From Thunnus maccoyii (Eukaryota; Chordata; Actinopteri; Scombriformes; Scombridae): a stretch of DNA of 64,000 nucleotides. Positions 5,742-60,716 of this stretch are shown here, piece after piece (the first letter of the stretch is position 1; each line of letters starts with the position of its first letter). The stretch lies in assembly GCF_910596095.1 (NCBI RefSeq), contig NC_056550.1, forward strand, positions 11,344,501 to 11,408,500. The letters are read 5' to 3'. The notes under the pieces are model-generated. The model did not search any database. It was not told the origin of the DNA and worked only from the letters and a program-made list of their open reading frames with translations. Made by a program: the position numbers and the translations under genes.

Positions 5742-6175
5742 CATAATTGGACTTTATGACATTGACGGACATCGGGGTGAAATGAGGTGAATGGTGACTC
5801 GGCAAAGAAAGATAATAATAATAACAACACTGATGATGGTTATTGTGAGAGGGCAGGTAAGGATGCTTCAGCAGTGTGATTATGATAATAACTGATGATT
5901 GTAGAGATAATAATGATGAAACCTTTGAGTACATTACACACTATTATGAAATAAAGACTGATTCTGATATTTGGATTAAAGGTAATGATAAAGACTTTAT
6001 GCAGATTGTCTGATGTTAATGTTCATCACAGTTTGAGTTTTCAATTTTATTTTACTTAATATAAACATCTTAATATTGTGTTACTGTAATACACAATGAC
6101 AACTCACTACACTGAAGGCATTGAAGCCATAGTGGCACTGCATTTCAACTTATAATTATCATTATTAACATTGCC

Positions 6176-6381
6176 TTAAAGGACAGGTTCACAGTTTTTA
6201 AAGTCTGTCTTAAAACAACAGTCAGGTGTCCAGATGAATACTGAAACAGGTTTTTCTTGCTGTAATCATTCCTCCTGTTCATACTGGACATTAAAAGATT
6301 CCCTACAAATGTGATGGGGGACAAAATCCACAGTCCTCGTTTTGTGCAAGAATGTATTAAAATTATGAACCTGTCCTTTAA
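6176..6381 (+). mobile_element. 206-bp MITE with perfect 16-bp inverted ends and TTAA termini
   Basis: TTAAAGGACAGGTTCA at 6176-6191 is the exact reverse complement of 6366-6381. If the outer TTAA is a target-site duplication, this resembles a non-autonomous piggyBac-type element. There is no coding capacity. A relative lies at about 46015-46490. Confidence 0.8.
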
Positions 6382-6617
6382 TTGTAATATCCAAATGAAA
6401 TGTTGTTATGTACCTTCTGTAATACATTAAAGGGGAACTTATTCCTGCACTTCTATAAAGTTGGGGAACAGAATCAGTTCTGTAGATGCTTTGATAAACT
6501 TTAGTTTCATCTTTCCACAGCTTGTAAATGTTGACACTGCGGTACCTTTTGCTATTTGGATTCAGCTTGTATTGTTTTCATGCTGACGGTACACGTGGTG
6601 TTTTGTTTGACAGTTTG

Positions 6618-17901: not shown

Positions 17902-38897
<20,996 letters not shown>

Positions 38898-40739: not shown

Positions 40740-42565
40740 TCATGAGGCGTCTGCAGGCGGGGCACCGGCTTCACTGACTCCCTCCTCCAGGATTTCTCTG
40801 ACTTGTTCAAGACTCTCAGCCTGGCGAACTAACTCCAGCTTCACCTGAAGGGGGGAGAGAGGAGGTGAGTCAAATACTGTACGTCTATTGATATAATCCT
40901 TGTGGATGAGTTTTAATCATTTGGGATTATTTTGGGATTCGTGTTTCTGCAAGTCATAATAATTTTACTCATTTTCTCAAGCTAACTTCTACCATCCAGA
41001 CCACTTCTTACCTGCAGCGACTGGGAGAGCTGCACAAAGTCCCTTTGAACAGTCTGGCTGGTGTCGACCTGGGAGCGCAGGCTGATCACTTGGCTGCGCA
41101 GCTCCAGACACTGCTGCTGCAGGCCCGCCTGACAGCCAGAGAGAAGAGTAAGAATAAAGCCCCTGTGTGTCAGTAACCTGACGCACCAGATGGTTTGTTA
41201 CTCAGAACCATCTGAGAAGTCGTCCCTGGAAACTGTTTGGAAAAGGGCAGGCATTTCCAAAAAATACTTGGCAGGTGATTGGATGAACCACCTGTCTATC
41301 ATCATCTTACCTTGCAAGGCAGTTGGTTCGTGACATCACGAAATCGTGCGAGAATCCTTATAGGATGCCAATTGGACCGAACCACCGGTGGTTCGGACAC
41401 AAGCACATAACTTGAAGCCTGACAAGATGGATTATCATGTGATCTTGTGAATCCAGCTGCCTTGCTAGGTAAGTGTGTTATACCCCTAATGGTTATATCA
41501 AAAACATATATAGTGTAGCACACATGCTACTGTTTAAAGTATTCACAGTGTAAAGATAAATAAAATTCTACACATCAAGTCTCATTTCAGTCAATCAATT
41601 ATCAATATATAGCCCACCGCCAATACTCACAAGTATTCACTTTTCTCATTATATAATGATAATAATAATAATAATAATAACAATAATATGACACATAATG
41701 TTATAAATCAAGCTCACAGTCAGAGACTTAAAACAATATTTTCTCACTGCAGTAACTGCGAGAGATTGGGGAAAAGTCAGATGTAAGGTGTGTACGTACA
41801 ATTAATTACTTTTTACATTAATTTCCTGAAACTAAGATGAATAATCATGATAAATAATTGTTACAAATGATCAGAATTAATATTTCTGCTCAGCAATGCC
41901 ACCAGAGTGACAGCCCACCACACACAGGATATTCCACCAGTGCAAATAGCAACAAAAAACAGGTTGGATTTACTTTATCATTACTGAGGGTCTTGTTGTT
42001 GCTCTGCACATGAGAGAGCGCCACCCGCAGGGCTTCGAGTTCAGTGCGGCAGGCCAGCAGCTCAGCCTGCAACTGGTCCTTCTGGGCCTGGATCCTCTCC
42101 GTCTCTGTCTTCAGACTGGAAAGCTGCACTGCAGACACAATCACAAACAAAGGTCCATCACCTTAACTTCATTCTATATAATGTCTATTTATTATCTGAA
42201 TTTGTATCAACATATAATATCTGGAGAGATTTCATGGATTCACAAGTCTAGTAGACATTTTTTTTAAGGGTGAACTAATTTAAACCACCTTCCTTATTCC
42301 AATGCTGATTGGATGGTATGTAAATGCATGATTGCCTTGCTAGGTGCAATGCTATTTACCTAGAGGGGAATCACCTGTGTTTTCGCTATTTCAGAGGCAT
42401 CTGTACTGCATAGTTGTGACAATGATGAAGGCTGGATGGCCAAATAAATTTTGTCTTCTAGTCTTCTTTAAATTATTATGATTTCTCTGTCATTATTAAT
42501 AAGGAAAATAACAATTTATTTCAAGTTGGGTTTAATTTTCCTAGTTTTGGCCATCAATTCTATCA

Positions 42566-42614
<49 letters not shown>

Positions 42615-45600
42615 GATTATACTCACAAAAGGGGATAAAATGTTAACGGTGAAATAAATCTGAATATAAATGTAACCCTACGCCAGTCACTAGATTTACT
42701 AATTGGCTTACCAGACTAATAAGAATGATTTGTTCACTCACCTTCTAAAACTTCTGATGATCGTGGTTGCAAGTGAGAGCAGGCAGGGAGAGAGAGAGTG
42801 CAAAATTAAAAATGTGTCACAGTCAAGACAGTGTACAAAAAAAGCCTTAATAATAATAAAAAAATATAAAGCACAGACCATTCTCCTCTGCCCGGGTGTC
42901 CAGCTGCTCCCTCAAGTTGACTATCTCGATGCGAAGACGCTCCTCACAGTGCGCCCCCTGCAGGTTAGAGCTCAACAGTGAACACACACTGATACCTCCT
43001 ATAAAGCTGTCATCAGCTTTTCATTTACCAATTAAAAAGGTTGAAACACAAATCAAAGCACAAACACTATCTGACCAGCTGCACTGCAGGACTTATTAAA
43101 TTAAAGAAACCAAATAACATCTTAAAACTAGCACGTTACTAAGAGGAACTCTCCTCTCAGACAGACAGGCGTCAAACTGGTTTCTGTTCCCTTTTCATTT
43201 ACAATGCTATGTAAAACTATTCTTCTAAAAATACTGGATGTGACTCATTTATGTGAAAATATCTGACTAATTATGATACAATGTTTATATGACTTGTTAC
43301 TAAATGGATTCTAAGTGGCTTTTCATCACCAGCACTTACAGGGCAGATAAACTATTAACAAAAACCTGAAACAGTAATCATACCTGCAGTGTTGCTGGGA
43401 ATGATGAGCTTGACTCTGGTCCCTCATCCTCAACCTCCTCTCCTTTCAGTCTGGACAGCTCACTGCACATCTTCCTCTGGGAGAGGGACAGCTCTGCCTG
43501 GACTCACACAAAAGCCATCACACATGCAGGTTTGAACACCTACTGAATAAATATCTTTTTGGCTGACACACAAATACCTAGTGTGCATAGTATTTACAGA
43601 CTCGCCTCAGGAATCAATTCACTACTGTTGACTTGTTCAGTGTGTGATGGATGAGTGAGTCATCATGCACACGAGTTACAAATTTGCGGCAAGAAAACAA
43701 TTAAAGAGATGTCACTTCATTTATATTCTTGGCAAGTTTACATGTTAAACAGGCTAGTTTAAATTAAACTTGACACAGTAACGTTTGACATTATTATCAC
43801 TCACCAGCCGACCCTGGACTGCGTTCTGTGATAGGCTAAAAGATTTCTGTAAATCCTGGAGGAGGGCCTCTGAAGTCTGAACCTGAGACTGGAGCACGGA
43901 CACCTGAACACACACAAATTAACATGCGTATAAGTCTGCACATCAGGTTCACTGTGCGTGTGTGTGTCACTGACTCACACTCTACACACTCACAGGTGTA
44001 AACTCATATTCAGAGGAGCGTCGCCCACCTGTTTGTGTGTGTGGTTGGTCTGTGTATCCAGTTCTTTCTCCAGCTCCTCCTTCTCAGCCTGCAGTCGACT
44101 CACCTCCCCACGCAGCTCTGACACCTGCCCGACACAGCACACATGACATTTTCTATTGTCAAATGTAAACAATACATTAATCCTCCCAGAAAAAAAAGAT
44201 CAATGTTGCTTTTTCAAAGACAAATCTATCTTAAAATCAAATTCCTGCAACCAGACTTTTGAAGCAGATATTACAGCGTCAAATCCGAACCTGAGCATTA
44301 AGTGTATCCCAGTCACTGTGCGTGACCAGCCGATGTCCAGCGGGCGGCAGGTAGATAGCTTCAGGCACCAAAGTTCCTGTGGAGACCAGTGAGTCGGTAT
44401 CTTCCTGAGCGTGGGGTTTTCTGGGTAGAGAGGGCGTGTCTAAGGAGAAGGAGGACAAGGAGGCCGAGTCGCAGTGCCGCAGTGAAAAATACCCCTCTGT
44501 CGTAAGCGCGGCCCCTTCTCCTTCTGCCGCCGCCTCGAGCTCTGCTGGTTGGCTGTGCGTCCTGTCCGTCGGAGCCGTGGCCTCGGCGTGTGTCAGGCTG
44601 TTTGCGATCGATGGCGGTGATTCATTACTGGCGGCTTCTGCTTCCATCCTGCCTTTCCTTCCGCCGATCTAACAGGTGGAGAGAAACAAAAAGGTGGGCA
44701 TGAGTCCAAAACATTTGTAAACAATTTTGGGAAAAAGACACACACACTGTTGCACACTGACCAGGCTCTGTCCGCTGGCTCTCCTCCACTCCACTGGCTG
44801 AGACTGCAGAACAGCGATCCTGGCCTCATACTGCGCTGCTGTCTCTGAAAACACAACAGGATAATGAAATAATGATGAAACCATTTTATCGTTGCATTTG
44901 TGCAGCTTAAAAAGGAGCATAACTTGGTAAAACACTTAGTAATACCTTGATTGTCTGCTGTCTGAAAGACTGAAAGTTTGCCTTAATTTGAAACTACATA
45001 ATAAGGAACTGAAAACAAGGCGTATGGCTGTTTAGTTCTCATTAAACATTAGTACAACTTTTTTTTAAATCCCCAACACTGCAATAAATGAGAGGTTTCC
45101 AAGTCATAGTTAGAAAACTTCTGCATTCATTTACTGTAAGTTTAGGTTCAATCATACTTTCTTTTCCACTCTTCCAAAAATCAATAACATGCTGTAAGCG
45201 CTAAGAGTTGAGATGCAGATTCTAGTTCTTGGTTAGCTCTTTCAAAGGCCAGGCATCTCTGTACATACCTGACATGATTAAAAAGATAAAAGCCAAGGTC
45301 TGTCCAGTGTTCTGAGGAGAGGCTCTTAAGTTGTTGAATGAAAACAAAACTGTCAAAGTTTGCATTTTCCTTGGGGACATTTACTGAACAATGCTCCAAA
45401 CACAACTTATGTTTGTCTTTGTAATGCTGTCTTATTATGTGACATTATCATACCATGTGCACACAAGGACTGTCACAAACACACCGTAAACACACACTTT
45501 GAGCCAAACACACACACACTGACCTCTGAGAGCCTCCTGCAGAGACTGAATCTCTTGATCACATTGTTTTTGCAGCTCTGCCAGTTCCTCCTGTTTGCTC

Positions 45601-47763
45601 AGCTCACAGATCGTCGCCACACCCTGCCAGTGTTCGACCTGAGCTCTGCAATCGGCTAGTTGGGCCTGCAGGCTCACCTCTGTAAAATGACAAACAGGTT
45701 GAGGTGCGTTACCCTTCACTATGCTGTTTTGAGGGCGTTTGCATCAGTCGCACAAATATGGGATACAGGGAGGTGACAGGAATCTACATTACAAAAATAT
45801 CAGACAAGACTTGGAAATACTTAACGATACGAGAAAAGCTTATCTAATGTCTTTGATTTATATGCTGAGAAATTCCTTGCTTCCTTCATTCAGTTTTATG
45901 AAGCTATGAAACATGTTTGTGGCATCCGACTTGTTGCTCTCATAGTGAAACTGCCTGACAGTTGCATAAATACTATGCATGAGTCAGCCATGTAGTAATC
46001 TGTGTATTCACAACATTTTGTGATGGGGGACAAAATTTATGGTCCGTGTTCTATGCAAAAATATATTTCTAAGTTTATCTGAAGTTATAATGAGGCTCTC
46101 AGCCATCTGCATTAATCAAATCAAGTATAAATCTTCCAAAGTTATGTCTTTTTAATACCAAATTCCCTTTTTTTTGTTTCTCTGGACAGTGTTTCCTTGC
46201 TGAGCTGTGGCAGAGGAACAGTACAGAAAGTGTGAGTTTGGTACTAAAGTGAACATAACTTATGAAGATACCAAGCTGACTGTTAAAGCCTCATATTAGC
46301 TTTAGATAAACATTGGACTGTGGATTTTGTCCCCCATCACTTACATTGTCATCACTCAAGAAACTGATCTCTTAATGGTCAGTACGAACAGGAGGAATGA
46401 TTACAGCAAGAAAAAACTGTTTCAAAGTACAGTTGAACACCTGGTTATTGTTTAAAGACAGACTTGAAAAAATAAGTCATCTCCTTAAATTTACTGTACT
46501 TTGACATGTCAAATACACATGAGGGGTACAACTATCATGGAAATAAAGTACTTTGAAGCTTCAGAGTTGCTACCATTATTTTGTACAGTATCAAGTAAGC
46601 AAACACACACCTCTTTATCTTTCTTTTACTGCTACTGTTTGTAAGTATTCTCATGTCAAGGGCAGTAGTGCAAGAAGTACTCAGATCCTTTACTTAAGTA
46701 AAAGTACAACTAACCCTCCAAAGGCTCCCCAGATAAATGAGTGAATGGGTGAAAAAAGAAGAAAAAACTAAGTTCTGATACACAAAGCTGCTTTGGTGAA
46801 ATATTGGATCATTTGAACATTTAATGAAATGAAATCAGAGAAGTTTAGAGGGAAAAATCACTATTTGGTGGAGCTGTTAACAATTCATAGACATCTGAAA
46901 TGTGACCCCAGCTACACACTGCTTTTTGTAAGACTCAAAAGCCAAATAGGTTGGAAACCACTGGTTTCATCTTTAACAATGTGTTGTATTTAAAAAGCTT
47001 GTTATATTATCCATTGTGTCAAATCGTCATCTGACAAGTTACTAAAGCTGTCAAATAAACATAGTGGAGCAGAAATTACAATATTTCCCTCTGAAATGTA
47101 GTGGAGTGAAGTATAAAGTATCATCAAATGGAAATACTCAAGTAAAGTAGAAGTACCTCGAAATTGTACTGAAGTGCAGCACTTGAGTAAATGTACTTAG
47201 TTACTTTCCAACACTGGCTAAAGGACCTAAATTTGCTACACTAGGTTACTAGTAACTACGATTTTGTCAAAGGGATATCTAAATATGTACTGCTAGCTAG
47301 CTAATTTGTTATTATGACTAACTTTAGTAAAGTATAGGCTAGGATAATAGCTATGAACGAAGTTAAACAGCTCTCAAGTTATGTTAATGTCTTCAGAGTG
47401 AAATGACAACTGAACTGGATTTAAACTCACTTTAGTCAGGACCAGTGGACCCCCCTCGGTGGTTTATAAAGGTCACTATACCCCAGTTTGACCACAAATA
47501 AAGTGTTAGCTCGCGGCTAGCTGCGCCCGTTCGTTTCTATGGTCGGCGATGCTAACTGCTAACACACAGGCCGTTTATTGGCTACCTGACTCACCATCAA
47601 CAGGTTTCACTGAAGATCAGCAACAAGTTAAGAGTTAATATTTACTGAAATTCAAGGTGTGCAGCAGTCAGCGTCAACTCACAGCCAATCCCGTCACATA
47701 TGAAGCAGATTAATATTTAACGCTGTGGTTTTTATTACCTGAGTCTTCACTCTTTGAGGTCAT
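40740..47763 (-). CDS. rabep2: Rabaptin-2 (Rab GTPase-binding effector protein 2)
   Basis: Coiled-coil Rab5 effector of early endosome fusion. Twelve exons (5' to 3' on the minus strand): 47763-47739, 45679-45524, 44844-44762, 44668-44291, 44124-44029, 43903-43805, 43497-43384, 42957-42879, 42753-42742, 42128-41974, 41128-41012, 40844-40740; all junctions keep phase and give 472 aa (MTSKSEDSEVSLQ to PPADAS). Diagnostic matches to mammalian RABEP2 are DSASLSSFSL, DSLVSTGTLVPEAIYLPP and the C-terminal QRDFVQLSQSLQVKLELVRQ followed by AESLEQVREILEEG. Most of the protein is heptad-rich coil with a Ser/Ala/Glu-rich linker encoded by the large fourth exon. It is shorter than human RABEP2 (569 aa, from memory): the coil that should lie between exons 3 and 4 is missing and the intron there is only 93 bp. 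Convergent orientation with atp2a1 matches human. Confidence 0.95.
41307..41472. mobile_element. Inverted-repeat element with a 20-bp perfect palindrome (rabep2 intron 10)
   Basis: Ends CTTACCTTGCAAGGCAGTTGG and CCAGCTGCCTTGCTAGGTAAG are inverted copies with about three mismatches. At 41377-41396 lies a perfect 20-base palindrome, CCGAACCACCGGTGGTTCGG. A partial terminus (GCCTTGCTAGGT) recurs near 42334. Confidence 0.6.
41657..41688. repeat. (AAT)n microsatellite
   Basis: ATA trinucleotide tract with one CAA break, in rabep2 intron 10. Confidence 0.9.
42566..42614. repeat. (AAT)16 microsatellite
   Basis: Pure trinucleotide tract in rabep2 intron 9. Confidence 0.95.
42742..42753 (-). CDS. 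rabep2: 12-nt microexon of rabep2
   Basis: The 12 bases AAGTTTTAGAAG lie between CATCAG (acceptor) and GTGAGT (donor), with a CT-rich tract about 20-45 bases upstream. Joined to the G before and TG after, they read E-V-L-E-V, giving EENEVLEVQLSSLKTE, which aligns with TEVLEASLCSLRTE of human RABEP2. Without it the frame is kept but the heptad loses four residues. Confidence 0.8.
46015..46490. mobile_element. Relative of the 206-bp TTAA MITE, reversed (rabep2 intron 1)
   Basis: Read on the minus strand, 46470-46320 matches the element at 6176-6381 (TTTCTTGCTGTAATCATTCC, then GTGATGGGGGACAAAATCCA). A second inverted GTGATGGGGGACAAAAT copy at 46021 gives a longer palindromic structure. Terminal repeats are worn. 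Confidence 0.65.
46663..47218 (-). mobile_element. hAT-like element, reversed copy of the 6853-7345 family
   Basis: On the minus strand the start reads CCAGTGTTGGAAAGTAACTA then AGTACATTTACTCAAGTGCT; the other end has CTTTTACTTAAGTAAAGGAT. It lies in rabep2 intron 1. Confidence 0.75.
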
Positions 47764-51298: not shown

Positions 51299-52685
51299 TT
51301 ACAAGTCCATGTCATGATCGCTGACACTCTGGCGTAGATAGTCTTCATACAGCTTCTTCTGCAGGGAGAGAAAATAGACAGTTAAACATACTTCAATACT
51401 GCCTTTTTTTTTATTGCCAGTACCATTTCAGTACAAGTTACACACACACACTCTACCTTTTTGGTCTTGACCACCTCCTGAACGTACTCCAGCTTCTCCT
51501 GCAGTTGCCTTTTCTGTTTGCCTGACAAAGTTGGTCGAGTCCTGCGTAGAATTAAAAAAGGGAAAACACGTCAAAGTCCGAGAATCTGATCAGATTTATT
51601 ATTAAGTAAATGTCATGAGTAGTGTTGCAAATCCACAGAGTCCTAATCACATTCAGCTGCCTAACAGGAATCTACTACCAGTGTCTGAAAAACTATAGTT
51701 GAAGAACACAGACTTTTTATGCTTCCTTTTCAAAACTAAGGTGAGATCACCTACTTAATCTTACAAGAAGAAATAAAAGTGAAATAAAAAAGTGTCACAG
51801 CTGGAGGAGAGTGTAAAAAAGTTTTTTAAAAAGTTGCATTTCCACTGGAGATAAATAAAAAGAAAAAAAAAGTATTAAAGTGTAAAATAAATTAAAAAAG
51901 GATAAAAATAAAACAGGATTAAGTACGACATTAACGTTACATTACAATAAATTAGAGCCCTACTTGAAGGAGAAGCGTGCGATGATGAGTAGGAGGAAGG
52001 AGAGGAGGACCAGTCCACCACAGCTGTAAAGCTGCTGCTCCACAGAGAGTGACTCAAACATTCTCACGATGGGAGTCTGTGAATTACAAGAGGAGCTATA
52101 ATTAGATTTGACTGCTTTGAACATTAACTGTGTGTGCAGCTGCTGATTGTTTGTCTCACACACACAGTGTCACACACCACCCCAGTGAGCTCTCACCAGA
52201 TAGAGCCCAAGTGCTTCTTTGCCTTCGCGGCCCAAAGCCATCTCCAGCAGCTCCTTGGACAGAGCGCCCAGCACCAGTAAGGCCATCAGAGCCAGTGGGA
52301 AACTGAAGCCCAGCAGAGTCAGGAAGCAGCTCTTGCAGCGCGCGCGTCGGTTCTCAACACTGGTCTGCCTGTGAGAGCAGAGGGTCGAGATTATTCTGTG
52401 AAGGCATCACTGACTGACGCTGCTGTGTGTATCCCGATAATCTTTTGTTTTTGATAAAATAATTCTCTGCATGGGATCACACTCACAGCTGGATTATTCA
52501 CAATTCCTATGAAAGACTTCATATGATTTCTAAATATAACAGGATAATAATCTCTTTAAGATTATTAGCAGAATAAAAGGCCCCATGTCAAATCAGCTAC
52601 TGTCAACCTGCATGCCCCTAATGGCATTACAGGGAATAACATCTAGAACTACCAGGATCTCCTGGAAGGGAGTGTCATACAAATA

Positions 52686-52730
<45 letters not shown>

Positions 52731-55700
52731 CTGTCATTAATGAGCGTATCAGTTATGGCCTCGCTGATGACCTCACAGTCCTTCTCAAGGGAGTTGAGTG
52801 TATTCTGGACTGTTTGGTTAATAGTTTTCTCGACGGTGCGACACACCTCCTCAATTTGGTTGACGCAGCGACTCGGCTAGGAACAGGAACACAGACAAAA
52901 GTAAATGTATACCTATCAGGTAGTTTATATTAAAAGGACTTTATTTGGAATGACATGCAAAGAGCGAGTTAAGGGAGCGGAGGTACGAGCCTAAAAAGTT
53001 AACGGATCACCTCGTTACCCTTACCTTGTTTGGACTAGGAATGTAGATGGTGGGCATGTCAAAACCACATTTGTTGAGTCCCGGTCGCTTGCAGAGCTCC
53101 TGGACAATCTGCATCATTACTCTCTGTGTCAGCCAGGCAAAAGAAATAATCAAGTCATTCAGAGGAAGACAGAGTCAAGACATCATTTCCTGTTTTTTTA
53201 GTATCATTGTGGCAATATCTAGTAATTCTCTTAGAAAGGACTATATTTGATGAGGTGAGTGTCCATTTACTGGTGTGTTCTGTTCTCCTAGATACTTGAA
53301 ACAGACCAGAACTGATAAAAACACTTGGCAGCAGCTTTAAGCTACCCACACACTTGCACATGAAGAGGGCATATTCTATTCTTGGTTATCAGTCCTCTTA
53401 GAGGGGCCGAGGTCTAACCATATAAAGCAGTGCATGTGATTTTTTTTCTTGTAGATGTAAATGGAAACTCCTTCTTTAACTTCTACAAAGGTGTCTGAAT
53501 ATTGTGTTTTTGTTCAGATGAACGTAGAAGGGCGTTGCTGTATATACCTGTCTGTCAGACTCTCCCCCGGCCTCGTCAGCCTTGCTCAGGTAAAAATGCA
53601 GCCGATCCCCGTGTTTCTCATTCAGGCTTTCCACAATGTTGAGGGTGCGCTTGCACAAAGCCTGACCCATTGGGTCGAAAAAGACCAAAATCAGGTCACA
53701 GAGATCACCTGAGTGTGACAGTGAGAAGGACAATTATTTAACTATGTTATTAAACTGCATGGTAATTCAAGCATGATGTTTAAACTGAAGTTTCTGAGTG
53801 ATATTCATTAAACTGTTGTCTTTATGATTTTTTGCGGTTGTTAAAATGGTTTATTTTTTAAAAATTTAAACAGAGGATTTAGCATCATGTCATCACATTT
53901 TCATTGTGTTGTGACAATATGGTTCTACTAAAAGATGATCTCAAAATCTTAGCTGTCAACATTGACATTATCTCTCGGTTTCTTTTAGAGACCTATTTCA
54001 GTTTAGACATAAAAAGCACTAATAAACAGAACACTGCATTTAAGATTTGAATCAACCATGAACTAGCACCTTTTTGAAAGCAGGATTTCATTTTACCATC
54101 ACACAGACTTGAACATAGTCAGTAGAGCTGCCTGCCTCATTTTGTACTATTCAAAGAAAACCATTTAAAATAACTCAGTTGCTCATCACCAGCTGTCACA
54201 ATGCCATTAGGAGAACCTCGATAACTACAGTTACACAATAACTGAAGGTCAAGAACAATAGAAGAAGGTCAGAAACCCACCCAGCCACAGGATAACCTCG
54301 TCCACATCAAAGGGATACTTCATATCACCATCCACCAACCCTGGCGAATCCACAAAAGTCACCAGGCTGAACCGTTTCTGACGCGACGTGCAGATCTCTG
54401 TGCTCAAGTACTCTGAAACACCTAGAAATCAATTGAGGAAGATCAGAGAATTGTGGTAAAAATTAATAAGCACCATAGTGGATGTTGATAATTTAACTAT
54501 GAATGTTTGATACTGATCACCTTACATTCAAATAAAACATGATGAAGCCACATGGCTGTTGCACTAAAAGCAAAGTTCCTGTTTAAAGTGCAGCACAATA
54601 ACCTGAATAAATAACATCTGTTTGTCTTCAGTGTTTTAATAGAAGAATTGTGTGGGTGTTGCCACACCGATCCCTTGTCTCTCTTCATCTGTGTTGTTTT
54701 TTGTTGCTGCATCCTCAACAGTAATATAAAAGCGAAGGAAGTGTAAAAAAGGACCAACAACAAAATATACAGCGAATCTCTTGGCACTTTGGGAATGCAT
54801 CAGTGTGACAGCAGCCTGAGGGGGAAACAGAGTGTGCCACTGTGATGAGTCTCCTGAATAGCACAGGAAGGGATCGTGATTCAAGCTGCAAATCTCACCT
54901 TTGAACTGTTGCAGAGGCTTGAAGTGTGGATACAGATGAAGGGTGGCATTTCCCTAAAGACAAAACAGAACCAGATCAGTCGGAAATAGTTTGTGAACCA
55001 GGTGTCACACTCTCCACAAGTACTGAAATCAATATTAAAAGTAAGTGTTTTTGTAAGAATGCACTCACTGTGAGAGATTCTCTCTTGCGCCCACTCGTCA
55101 CAAAGCTGAAGCCTTGGGTCTCAATCGCCACTCCAGTGCGCTGGATGTGCTCTTCGACATACCTGACCAAAAAAAACAAAGCAGAACAAAAAGGACCTGG
55201 TATCAGACAACTTTGTGATGCATTGATGGAGCAGTCAGTTTTGTCCAGTGTCCAAAACAAATCAATTAAAACTATATTATTATTGATGTGTATTGGCTGA
55301 CTCGAGTATTAACAGCATGATCTTTACTGCACTCCTGCATTTGTCAGGTAATGTTTCTATAAATTGCATACAAAACCTGTGCAAGGAGGGATGTAGCTGA
55401 ATGCTACAAATTATACTAGACAGACAATATAACATGCTATTTTCTGTTGTGTGCAGTTTGTATTTCCTTGTGTTTTGTTCTGTTACATATATGGCATCAT
55501 ATCATTTAGTAGTTGGATCTTGGCTAGATGGACTTGCTCTGTATAAAGTCCTCTGAGACATACTTTTGTCAAATATATATTACCAGTTGATGAAGGAGCT
55601 TTTCCCAGCAGAATGGTTGCCCATCAGCAATACAGTGATCTTTTTCCTGGGCGGCAGCAACTTCACACCAACAGTTTCGGCCACTGTGATCAACCCTGAA

Positions 55701-57464
55701 CAAACCAGAGAACACGGTTTTAATAATCACTTATAGCCAGTAGGCGATTTGAGGGGGGATGCCATCCCCCTTATTAGTAAAATGACCAAAATACATCCCC
55801 CTTTTTAACCAGCCATCCCCCCTCTCCATCCCCTAGTAGCAGAAAGAGGGCAGGGGCAGAGAGGTGGTTTAGTTGAATATGTTAGTGTGGTCTGCCTGTC
55901 TCATTGATCCTTTATCTGACTGAGGTTTGTGCAAGTTAGAATCTATGCCCCGAGCATGGCTCTGAAATATCAGTAGCCTAACTGTGCTGTGTATTGATAA
56001 ATCCATGGAACTTTCTGTGGTGCTGAGGTAGCAGACGGATTTGTGATTGTGTCTTTATCTCTCAGTCCTGTCCTTTTGTCAGTTTCATCTTGGATCTATA
56101 ATATTCTCTAAACTATATACTATAAATACTCAATTCTATACCATAGTGTAGCCTAAATACTAAATAGAGTAGTGTAACCTTCATGATCAAAGTCACAAAT
56201 AGTGAGAGGATCATAGAGACACACTGCTGCTTGTAGTATTCCTATAATATTTCTATGATCATTCAGTAGCGTCTGTGCAAAAACAAAATATTTTAAAATA
56301 TTTTAGGGGAGACATGACTACAGATATAGTTTTTACTATAGATGTTTGATGTAACCTGGGTCTAGAGCAGGTAATGTGACTGATGAAATTAACTTGCACT
56401 GACCACACTGCACTCAACTGCCACAGCTACACAATTTGAGGTCAAGTTTATACCATCAAAACTACAGTGTGTTTTGAAAAATAAGCATTATTAAAATGCA
56501 TAAAAGTCCAAATCCAGTAAAAGAACAGGCCTACAAAAATCACCTACTGCTTCTAGCTATCTTACACCTGGTGCACTGTTTTTTGAAAAAACAAAGATGT
56601 TAATATAAATTAAGCAAAACTGGAGTCATCATGCTGTTGTGGAGGCACCTGCAGGACTCAGGTAAGTCAGTCAAGAGCAAGACGAACTAGAAATATCAAA
56701 TGTATTGAGTGAAGAAAGTGATTGCAGAGGGCTCACATATATTTCAATAAGAAGTTTGGGAAGGCATAGATGGTAGACAATGGATGTAGGTAACTACACT
56801 ACATCTCATTAATTTCATGACAAATCTCTGACACAAACTATCACAAAACTCTTATATATTATGAACTAACCTAGGTTACATTACAAAAATGCGAATGACT
56901 TTGAGTTTATTAGTATTCATGCTCACAGTGAACAGTTATATATATACACATGACTGTACATCATAAAAATATAAAACTATAAGTAACATTTCTATATATA
57001 CACATATACTCATACATTCATACTCATACAAACGCATTTACAAATACAACCAAGACTTCAGATATCTATCTATTGTAACGTGAGTTGTAGCTGGCTCAAC
57101 AGTTTAATTAGTTAACTAGTATCAGCGTTAATGAGCAACGTCAGCTAAATCTGAATCTAAATTGCTGCTTATTAGCTTTGCTAACAGTTAGCCTCGGGCA
57201 CCAGGGATACCGTTAGATTAATTACTAAGTTAGCTGGCTAACATCCAGTGAACAAGCGGTTTCCTGGCTTAGCTTTTTTATTAAATAGGAACACTATCGA
57301 AGTCAAAGGACGGTTGGAGCAGCAAGTTATGTGTCAGCCAACTCACCACTGTCGGGATCCGTGTACAGCTGATGACAATCCCGCAAGATGCGCTCATCAC
57401 AGGACACGCCGCCAGATATCGACTCTGCGTTTGCAGCAGTTCGGTTTTTGATTTTTCCAGACAT
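51299..57464 (-). CDS. EHD/dynamin-like GTPase with C-terminal two-helix membrane hairpin, uncharacterised
   Basis: Twelve exons join in phase to 451 aa: 57464-57347, 55695-55584, 55162-55069, 54953-54899, 54421-54281, 53708-53548, 53123-53025, 52876-52731, 52368-52197, 52076-51964, 51541-51457, 51358-51299. The GTPase motifs are the P-loop GNHSAGKS (65-72), DSPG (151-154) and SKAD (215-218), with a spacing and FVDSPG/LSKADE style closest to EHD proteins and sarcalumenin. A helical part (about 261-320) follows, then hydrophobic helices at about 323-346 and 383-403, and a basic, coil-prone tail to VSDHDMDL. No signal peptide or EH domain is seen. This order (GTPase, helix bundle, membrane hairpin, coil) recalls mitofusins and atlastins in small form. 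A role in membrane shaping or fusion is inference. At exon 5 an alternative acceptor 9 bases on (start 54412) would drop three residues. Confidence 0.88.
52690..52728. repeat. (TG)n / (CA)n abutting a splice donor of the GTPase gene
   Basis: On the coding (minus) strand the exon 8 donor reads GACAG|GTAACACACA: a pure CA tract of about 19 units starts at intron position 4. Confidence 0.95.
54961..55035 (+). repeat. 75-bp dispersed repeat, intron copy
   Basis: CAGAACCAGATCAGTCGGAA, AGTTTGTGAACCAGGTGTCA and AAGTACTGAAATCAA match 58108-58180 with few differences. The copy begins 8 bases from the 54953 exon boundary in the GTPase gene. Confidence 0.8.
55700..57346. other. Intron 1 of the GTPase gene
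   Basis: AT-rich. 55740-55830 has clustered ATCCCCC units (AGGGGGGATGCCATCCCCC is itself an inverted repeat) and may be part of a mobile element. Nothing else definite is seen. Confidence 0.4.
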
Positions 57465-57989: not shown

Positions 57990-58107
57990 GGATATAGAGG
58001 GGAGGGAGAGCAGAAGGGACAAAAAGAAGAAAAAAAAAAAAGATAAAAATGCTACAGTGCTGTTAGGAGGCATCTCTGGTTGCGTCCCAAGGACGAAGAG
58101 GCAGAGA

Positions 58108-58180
58108 AAAAACAGAACCAGATCAGTCAGGGATAGTTTGTGAACCAGGTATCACGCTCTCCAGAAGTACTGAAATCAAC
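58108..58180 (+). repeat. 75-bp dispersed repeat, intergenic copy
   Basis: Matches 54961-55035. It is flanked by two partial copies of GTCCCAAGGACGAAGAGGC (58084 and about 58206), so it seems to be part of a larger repeat. Confidence 0.8.
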
Positions 58181-60716
58181 ACTGAACTTATTTGGTTGGG
58201 TTGGGTCCCAGGGACGAAGAGGCGCCAGAGTGAAACCCAGGTGGATCAGGACAACTGGGCCAAGCCAGGTTTTTATTTTTAGATAAAAACTTGGATCAAA
58301 TGTCAAATGTGTTGGTAAAATGTCGGAGGCAAATAAGAAGTGACACTGAATTTCTTAAAGGAGACATTACAAATTTACAAATGGAAGGAGGTTTTTCATG
58401 TCTGCAGTACATTTTGCAGGCAGCCATATACACACAGAAAGGGCTGTGTCTGGTAATCAAACCCATTACAGTTAGGCTCTGTGCTTACCACTGAGCCTGG
58501 CCGGAATAAACAACCATTTATGAGTGACAATACCCTGGCATCTGTCTTTTGCATTTACTGGCTTTTGAACCTTTCTGATGAGCAACACACTCAGTAACAT
58601 GACTGTCTACAAATTATTTCATGTATGCAAAGTACAGAATATAGTATAAATGTTCTCAACCTTAAAATACTCTTCTGCACCTCCTTGTCTTACTGATATA
58701 CGGAAATCTATGACTGCAGTACAGCAGTATAGCTTGCTGCTTTGAACAGACTATAGTTCAAGGCCACTCAGAAAAACATACTCAATTTAGTAAATGATTA
58801 CAGATGAAAACATCCTTTATACAGTAGTCTGTGGAAATGTTTGGGCCTGCATCAAGGTGGTGAAAAGAGTGCACACAGCATAGACGCCACACAACTTTCC
58901 AGTGTAAAACAAACAAAATAAACAAATATTTGTGTTCGATGCAGTTTAGTCCAAATGAAACATAGTTCAATTTCAATCCTTTAATTTGTCCATGAAAAAA
59001 AAACAAGAAAAATTTCTAGAATTTTCATTGGTTTAGTGGCACCTCATAGCATCTCAAGTGTTACACAAACATTTGATGATTCTGGAGACATAAAGACGGC
59101 TACTATTACACATACTGTAAGACAGTAAATCCAGTGTACGACGTATAATGATCAATTTAAAGACACAGATTTTAAGAGGAGAAATGCACAAATTAACTCA
59201 AGAGTTAAAAATGATTTGCAATTTCAAGTAAAAAGGAAAACACAGTATCAGCCACTTTCAAAGAAACTCAGTGCAAATTTAGAGAGTAGACACCTTCTGG
59301 TTCATATAAGCTAATTGTCTGTATATAAGCTGATATAGCCACCAGAGCTGAAAGTATATCTGTATGGGTGTGAATTTTCAGATTACGCCACAAAATGTTC
59401 TTGTTAAAAGATTGAACTGTAGAAATAGATGGAAAAAACTCTGCACACATACCTGCCAAAGAGCAAATAAAAATACCTCATAGGGCTTATAAGATTAGTG
59501 GTACTTCATAGAACTGCTGTGGAGCTAATTCAATGAACTGTTTCTTGTACAAGGTTTCAACTTTATAAACCCAAGTACAGCCACATTCTCCCTCCTTTCC
59601 CATAAGTGCCTAGTAGACGTCCCCTCTAGCTTTATAGCATAAACAACACTTCACATCTTGTGAATCTCTTACTTTTAATTCAGTGCAAAGACAAACATGA
59701 TTTAATGCAAAGTAAGAAACATGGGATTATGCAGCTTTCTCTCAATACTATAACTAAATTAAGCTAATTATGCAGCTTGGTTGTCTGTTGTTGATTGCCT
59801 TTTGATGACGGAAACGTCTGTGTGTTACTGTTTGTATCAGGAATCTTAACAGATACAAGCCATTTAAGGCGTAATTCTGCATCCCTGTTTCATCGCAAAG
59901 TATGGCCGGCCAGTGAGATGACACGTAACAATGTGAACATTTGGACAGGCAGGCTGTTGAGTGTGAGATGGCCTTTGCTTCCACCATCTGTTACCACTTC
60001 AAAACATGTTTGTCCTCTAGCTTCAGCCCGTTTATGCTCAGTGTCACTGCATGGCTGGCCTGTGAGGGGATCTTCATATTCTATTCACATGTAAAGATCA
60101 AAGTCAGTCTGCGCTATTTCATTCTGATTACCCCCCTTATCACACTTAAATTAATGTGGTATGTGTTATGTTCAGCAGCTCATTGTGTTTGTTCTTAACA
60201 CGATCACACTGAGTTAATGGGATCCTTGTTAACACTGAATACATTAGCATAATTTGATCCAATAGAAATAATGTGGTTAGCTTCGTCTTTTAATGAAGTG
60301 CTCCATTGAGCAGCATTGGTCTCAGGTTAAGCTTCTTCCAAGTAGTGAGTCAAAAGTTTTTGTTTTTTAATGGAAATGAATATTTTTTTTCTCTTCTTCA
60401 ACATAAGTCAAACAGTAGTTCTAAAATAGTTGGAAAAACTTTGATTTCACACCTTTTTTCTTCTTGCAACAGCTCAACATGCTAGTTTCATTCATTTCAC
60501 AAGATCAACTATATCTATCTTAAACTTCAAAGCCATAATGTTGCTGTACAGTGTATAATGGACATACATAACCATGTCAAAGTAATGAGATGCATATTAG
60601 CATCACTGTGATTATTATGTTGAAATTAGTGAGGGAGGATTCATGTAAGACATCAGAGCAACAGCACTCTAATGTTTCCTTCATCGTTATGCCAGAATAA
60701 AGTCTTTCGCCTTTGG

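Follow-up and report, generated by a model that had tools for sequence, protein, structure and literature searches.

A candidate hairpin-anchored dynamin-type protein of the EHD/sarcalumenin class in Thunnus maccoyii

The gene, its G domain and its membrane segments

The stretch of Thunnus maccoyii contig NC_056550.1 that we analysed (64,000 nucleotides, positions 11,344,501 to 11,408,500; hereafter the window) carries on its minus strand a gene for a protein with a dynamin-type G domain, two hydrophobic segments behind it and a basic tail. Our analysis suggests that this protein is probably a vertebrate nucleoside triphosphatase (NTPase) of the EHD/sarcalumenin (SRL) class that stands outside both named branches, has a bacterial membrane plan and remodels or tethers an intracellular membrane as a hairpin-anchored body. 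Shown directly are the G domain, a paralog, the two hydrophobic segments, charges fitting cytosolic ends and the occurrence of this plan in bacterial relatives; the action on a membrane is inferred.

The gene runs from a start codon at 57464 to a stop at 51299-51301, with 1356 nt of coding sequence in 12 exons (Table 1) for 451 amino acids. A preliminary description, made from the sequence alone, had called it intact with 12 phased exons; its coordinates proved exact, and all 11 introns are GT-AG and in phase. The motifs it had reported are all present, GNHSAGKS at residues 65-72, DSPG at 151-154 and SKAD at 215-218. A stretch of about 75 bases in intron 3 (window 54962-55035) has a slightly altered counterpart at 58107-58182, upstream of the gene, and is probably a dispersed repeat.

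Table 1. Exons of the window gene and two neighbouring features, in window coordinates.
Feature	Position	Strand	Content
Exon 1	57347..57464	-	start codon and N-terminal region, without hydrophobic leader
Exon 2	55584..55695	-	G1 / P-loop GNHSAGKSSFIN
Exon 3	55069..55162	-	QRTGVAIETQGF, switch I region
Exon 4	54899..54953	-	G domain
Exon 5	54281..54421	-	G3 DSPG
Exon 6	53548..53708	-	FFDP and G4-like SKAD
Exon 7	53025..53123	-	end of G domain
Exon 8	52731..52876	-	post-G region, predicted helical by comparison with a bacterial model
Exon 9	52197..52368	-	membrane segment 1, residues 324-342
Exon 10	51964..52076	-	membrane segment 2, residues 385-403
Exon 11	51457..51541	-	basic tail
Exon 12	51299..51358	-	C-terminus and stop codon
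SERCA-like pump	30366-34746	+	best match SERCA1, SERCA2 close
Coiled-coil stretch	41893-44668	-	

Two Pfam families, Dynamin_N (1.3e-7) and MMR_HSR1 (1e-5), match above cut-off and five more match below theirs, while the NCBIfam scan of the protein gave no match near any cut-off. Neither database supplies a specific name, in agreement with the earlier statement that the protein has no recognised one. Among solved structures the best sequence matches by phmmer are EHD4 and EHD2 (E 5.7e-10 to 7.5e-10, within residues 58-222). A G domain of EHD type is thereby common to the window protein and EHD (phmmer E of about 6e-10, hhalign E 1.2e-12), and that of SRL is homologous as well (hhalign E 6.5e-14), as the preliminary description had proposed. 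It had also noted the lack of an EH domain, and none appears in the Pfam scan up to E 1; just 48 residues follow the second transmembrane (TM) segment. The term GTPase is an assumption. G1 and G3 are intact, but G4 reads SKAD rather than NKxD, and EHDs are described as ATPases in PMC11285977.

EHD1-4 have an EH domain and a tip loop that dips into the membrane, in place of which the window protein has its TM pair. It also lacks the KPF and GSFW stretches seen in the fish EHDs. The contrast with SRL lies in the P-loop (GPWSVGKSS in SRL) and in the post-G region, which is not hydrophobic in fish SRL. Sarcalumenin has a signal peptide and a luminal location. The window protein shows no N-terminal hydrophobic leader, no 19-mer above 1.4 starting before residue 164. 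Mitofusin and atlastin/GBP domains are absent from the Pfam matches up to E 1, and mitofusin/Fzo1 and atlastin are much longer proteins. The suggested mitofusin/atlastin plan in half the length is better replaced by the plan of bacterial EHD/SRL relatives of nearly equal length. An origin by compaction of mitofusin or atlastin was rejected, since neither is found by Pfam and the bacterial plan accounts for the length.

The two C-terminal segments have Kyte-Doolittle means of 2.37 and 2.20, and those of a second copy, described below, reach 2.62 and 2.48. None of 300 shuffles of residues 296 to the end reached the weaker C-terminal segment in either copy. Over the parts of each sequence compared, the post-G 19-mer maxima are 0.57 in one fish EHD and 0.59 in one fish SRL. 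These values argue for the two membrane helices of the preliminary description, and of the membrane role that it had proposed, the membrane reading has gained support. A third, weaker stretch (residues 166-184, mean 1.76) falls between G3 and G4, within the G domain; several bacterial rows have a corresponding stretch above 1.4, and it is therefore counted as G-domain core. The positive-inside rule links charge distribution to membrane topology. Charges before, between and after the segments are +4/-2/+5 in the window copy and +2/-5/+4 in the second copy. By that rule they fit a cytosolic placement of both protein ends. The basic C-terminal region noted earlier is confirmed.

A second copy and other family members in the genome

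When the genome (782 Mb in 54 contigs, the window lying on C18) was searched with the G domain, 9 exons matched, and they belong to just two loci, the window gene and a copy on C9, with all 11 of 11 first-look candidates scored. The C9 copy (C9:19859457-19872532, L010-L012) has 12 exons in the same phases and 448 residues with no stop, its last exon having been chosen by similarity. The two proteins are identical at 268 of 447 aligned residues (60% overall), and the identity is very unevenly spread: 167/204 in the G domain, 6/28 in TM1, 6/26 in TM2 and 21/45 in the tail. The membrane segments have become very different in sequence while keeping their hydrophobicity. Between the copies, dS is saturated by NG86, and dN amounts to 0.16 over residues 41-300 against 0.80 over residues 301-451. 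The low dN shows the G domain to be under strong constraint. Contamination of the assembly by bacteria is ruled out by the two copies on different chromosomes, each with 11 introns, and is also contradicted by SERCA-like, MAPK3/1-like and GDPD-like exons flanking the window copy.

The same genome searched with the G domain of EHD4 gave 20 matches, which we read as five EHD-like loci (C8, C16, C17 and two on C6) and two sarcalumenin-like loci (C18 at 15.53 Mb and C2 at 32.4 Mb). Given these separate EHD-like and SRL-like loci, the window/C9 pair is a third set beside EHD and SRL in this one genome.

Bacterial relatives and descent

A first scan of genome contigs with the fish pair gave 58 pattern matches and none confirmed. 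A second scan, of bacterial and archaeal genomes with an alignment of SRL, EHD and the window/C9 pair as query, matched 84 stretches, of which 8 were confirmed. Seven resemble one another, with GN[HY]S[SA]GKS in 7/7, QRTG in 5/7 and DSPG in six (DTPG in the other); they also have N[KR]xD and two hydrophobic segments towards the C-terminus. The 12 letters GNHSAGKSSFIN of the fish P-loop are identical in four of the seven (L051, L052, L054 and L056). All seven come from metagenome-assembled genomes, which calls for caution, but their reading frames are open and they represent several phyla, under the titles Planctomycetota (4), Myxococcota, Proteobacteria and Kiritimatiellae. The remaining confirmed stretch, L058, is only distantly related and lacks a TM segment, and a further relative, L073, departs from the motif with ANYSSGKS.

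A profile of the fish pair only (E <=0.001) matched 20 of 294 genomes in the phylum of L053, 1 of 195 in that of L054 and 16 of 58 in that of L055. Among these counts are the loci already known (four, one and one, respectively) and two weak matches, one at 4.9e-4 and one at 5.9e-4 that covers just the C-terminal part. Because the group of L055 comprises only 58 genomes, its Proteobacteria label may be outdated. The best TM pair after the G domain exceeds 1.3 in 21/21 bacterial rows and 1.6 in 18/21 (L058, L064, L067 and L073 left out), and both fish copies reach at least 2.2. Under a simple threshold of 1.6, L052 and L053 have a single segment, as do L062 and L069 at 1.4. Lengths are 434-496 amino acids in 17 of the 21 rows, with start codons that were chosen, not proven. 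Dynamin_N matches all four bacterial relatives scanned by Pfam, and NCBIfam gave them none near cut-off. VIA-align 2 on a bacterial model listed no atlastin or dynamin-1 chain among 50 entries, a result that excludes nothing.

The window protein is like these bacterial relatives of EHD and SRL in P-loop, QRTG, D[ST]PG, length, post-G hydrophobic pair and charged tail. It differs in its longer loop and its 11 introns, and both fish copies have SKAD and DRQRVMMQIVQEL where the bacteria have N[KR]xD and D..RxYGALCWNL; the bacterial tail is longer. Viral contigs gave no confirmed homolog, and plasmids no match to the fish or EHD4 G domain. The SRL G domain matched three plasmid records with distant dynamins, and the two examined have no TM pair. 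On the Calditerrivibrio plasmid pCALNI01 (L049), two dynamin-family genes adjoin, and the one examined is without TM segments.

The passages of PMC7016017 on EHD and sarcalumenin describe the closest bacterial homologs of the two as having paired TM helices behind the GTPase domain, and derive EHD and sarcalumenin from a proteobacterial transfer; the relatives found here are mostly planctomycete-titled. The TM pair of the bacterial relatives is thus already published. Those passages do not mention a third vertebrate branch. The word sarcalumenin does not occur in a 2026 EHD review (PMC13282721), and passages of PMC11789081 set sarcalumenins aside as apparently independent transfers from bacteria. 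Within the open-licence literature, neither a paper on this protein nor its P-loop letters were found; it may bear another name.

With its two-helix membrane anchor, the window protein looks more like the bacterial relatives of EHD and SRL than like either of these, and several sequence comparisons also place it nearer to the bacteria. Its G domain scores 63.9-97.1 bits by blastp against the 21 bacterial rows and 41.6-62.0 against seven EHD/SRL rows; three of the EHD rows score lower because they are incomplete. With the C9 copy, EHD_C6A (59.7) and SRL_C18 (58.2) score higher than one of the bacterial rows, L075 (57.8). The fish pair aligns by hhalign with the bacteria at 2.2e-27 over 261 columns, against 6.5e-14 over 190 for SRL and 1.2e-12 over 154 for EHD, although the bacteria are favoured here by a profile built from seven rows, against two for each of the others. 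On these figures the EHD-group membership given in the preliminary description does not hold. Against the bacteria, EHD gives 3e-49 and SRL 1e-40.

In a tree whose eukaryotic rows all come from this one genome, five EHD rows form one group (100/99, starred) and two SRL rows another (100/99, starred). These join each other (100/99) and then eight bacterial rows, with a long-branch warning on the latter join, and the fish pair is in none of them. Instead it falls with the other 13 bacterial rows, of planctomycete type (88/96, unstarred), on a branch of length 6.87. Such a placement would suit a separate transfer, in which an animal ancestor acquired a bacterial gene later than, and independently of, the transfer behind EHD and SRL; this would be compatible with the mechanism proposed below and differ in descent. 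We hold this to be a minority possibility: so long a branch makes the placement unsafe, eukaryotic sampling is limited to one genome, and two copies with 11 introns each favour old residence. The pair might otherwise be a diverged animal EHD or sarcalumenin paralog that newly gained its hairpin, as the approximately unbiased (AU) test does not reject a tree in which all eukaryotic rows form one clade (p 0.40) and the P-loop introns lie close together. EHD loci C16 and C6A split the K/R codon in FI[KR]|Y and the window gene the W codon in FINW|Y, in the same phase and one codon apart in an ungapped alignment, and the two SRL loci have no intron in that region. The intron is only suggestive of common descent, with no chance estimate behind the comparison. 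We consider this origin improbable, since the hairpin follows the G domain just as in the bacterial relatives, the resemblance to bacteria is the greater one, and the P-loop GNHSAGKSSFIN..QRTG is bacterial in kind rather than GQYSTGKTTFI (EHD) or GPWSVGKSSM (SRL). Descent may have been by retention from a common source or by separate transfer.

Proposed mechanism

For the hairpin-anchored NTPase that we favour, the N-terminal helix, the post-G helices and the tail would build an EHD-like helical body, whose tip would cross the membrane as a helical hairpin rather than dip a loop into one leaflet as in EHDs. On binding nucleotide, the G domains of adjacent or facing molecules may pair; hydrolysis may then swing the helical body and thereby tether, bend or fuse an intracellular membrane in the manner of mitofusin and Fzo1. 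Tethering or fusion has, in our judgement, somewhat under an even chance; a curvature scaffold or scission as in EHD is a more tentative choice, and a nucleotide-switched anchor without remodelling seems unlikely. The protein could also be a membrane scaffold that binds nucleotide without useful hydrolysis, which need not exclude the other readings. The SKAD of both copies and the loss of the RxYGALxW stretch point that way, yet G1 and G3 are intact and the low dN of the G domain beside that of the C-terminal part speaks for constraint, and we regard such a scaffold as unlikely.

It is tempting to speculate, though we would not lean towards it, that a third vertebrate lineage keeps the ancestral hairpin-anchored form and that the dipping tip of EHDs is a remnant of the hairpin's site. 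If so, a living fish protein would tell whether the ancestor fused or shaped membranes. EHDs have been studied extensively as membrane-remodelling proteins, and their bacterial relatives are membrane proteins; a hairpin-bearing vertebrate protein would allow a hairpin-anchored dynamin-type protein to be compared directly with a loop-dipping one. Model fish, if they have orthologs, would permit removal of both copies, and animal cell biology gains a candidate membrane-remodelling protein.

Elsewhere in the window, translations of 6125-6405 and 46306-46501 match several places in the C9 region and are probably a mobile-element remnant. The minus-strand coiled-coil neighbour may be rabaptin, for which Pfam gave no match. 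MAPK3/1-like and GDPD-like exons lie to the right of the window (loci L014 and L015 among the neighbours), and the set of neighbours seems to resemble that of human 16p11.2.
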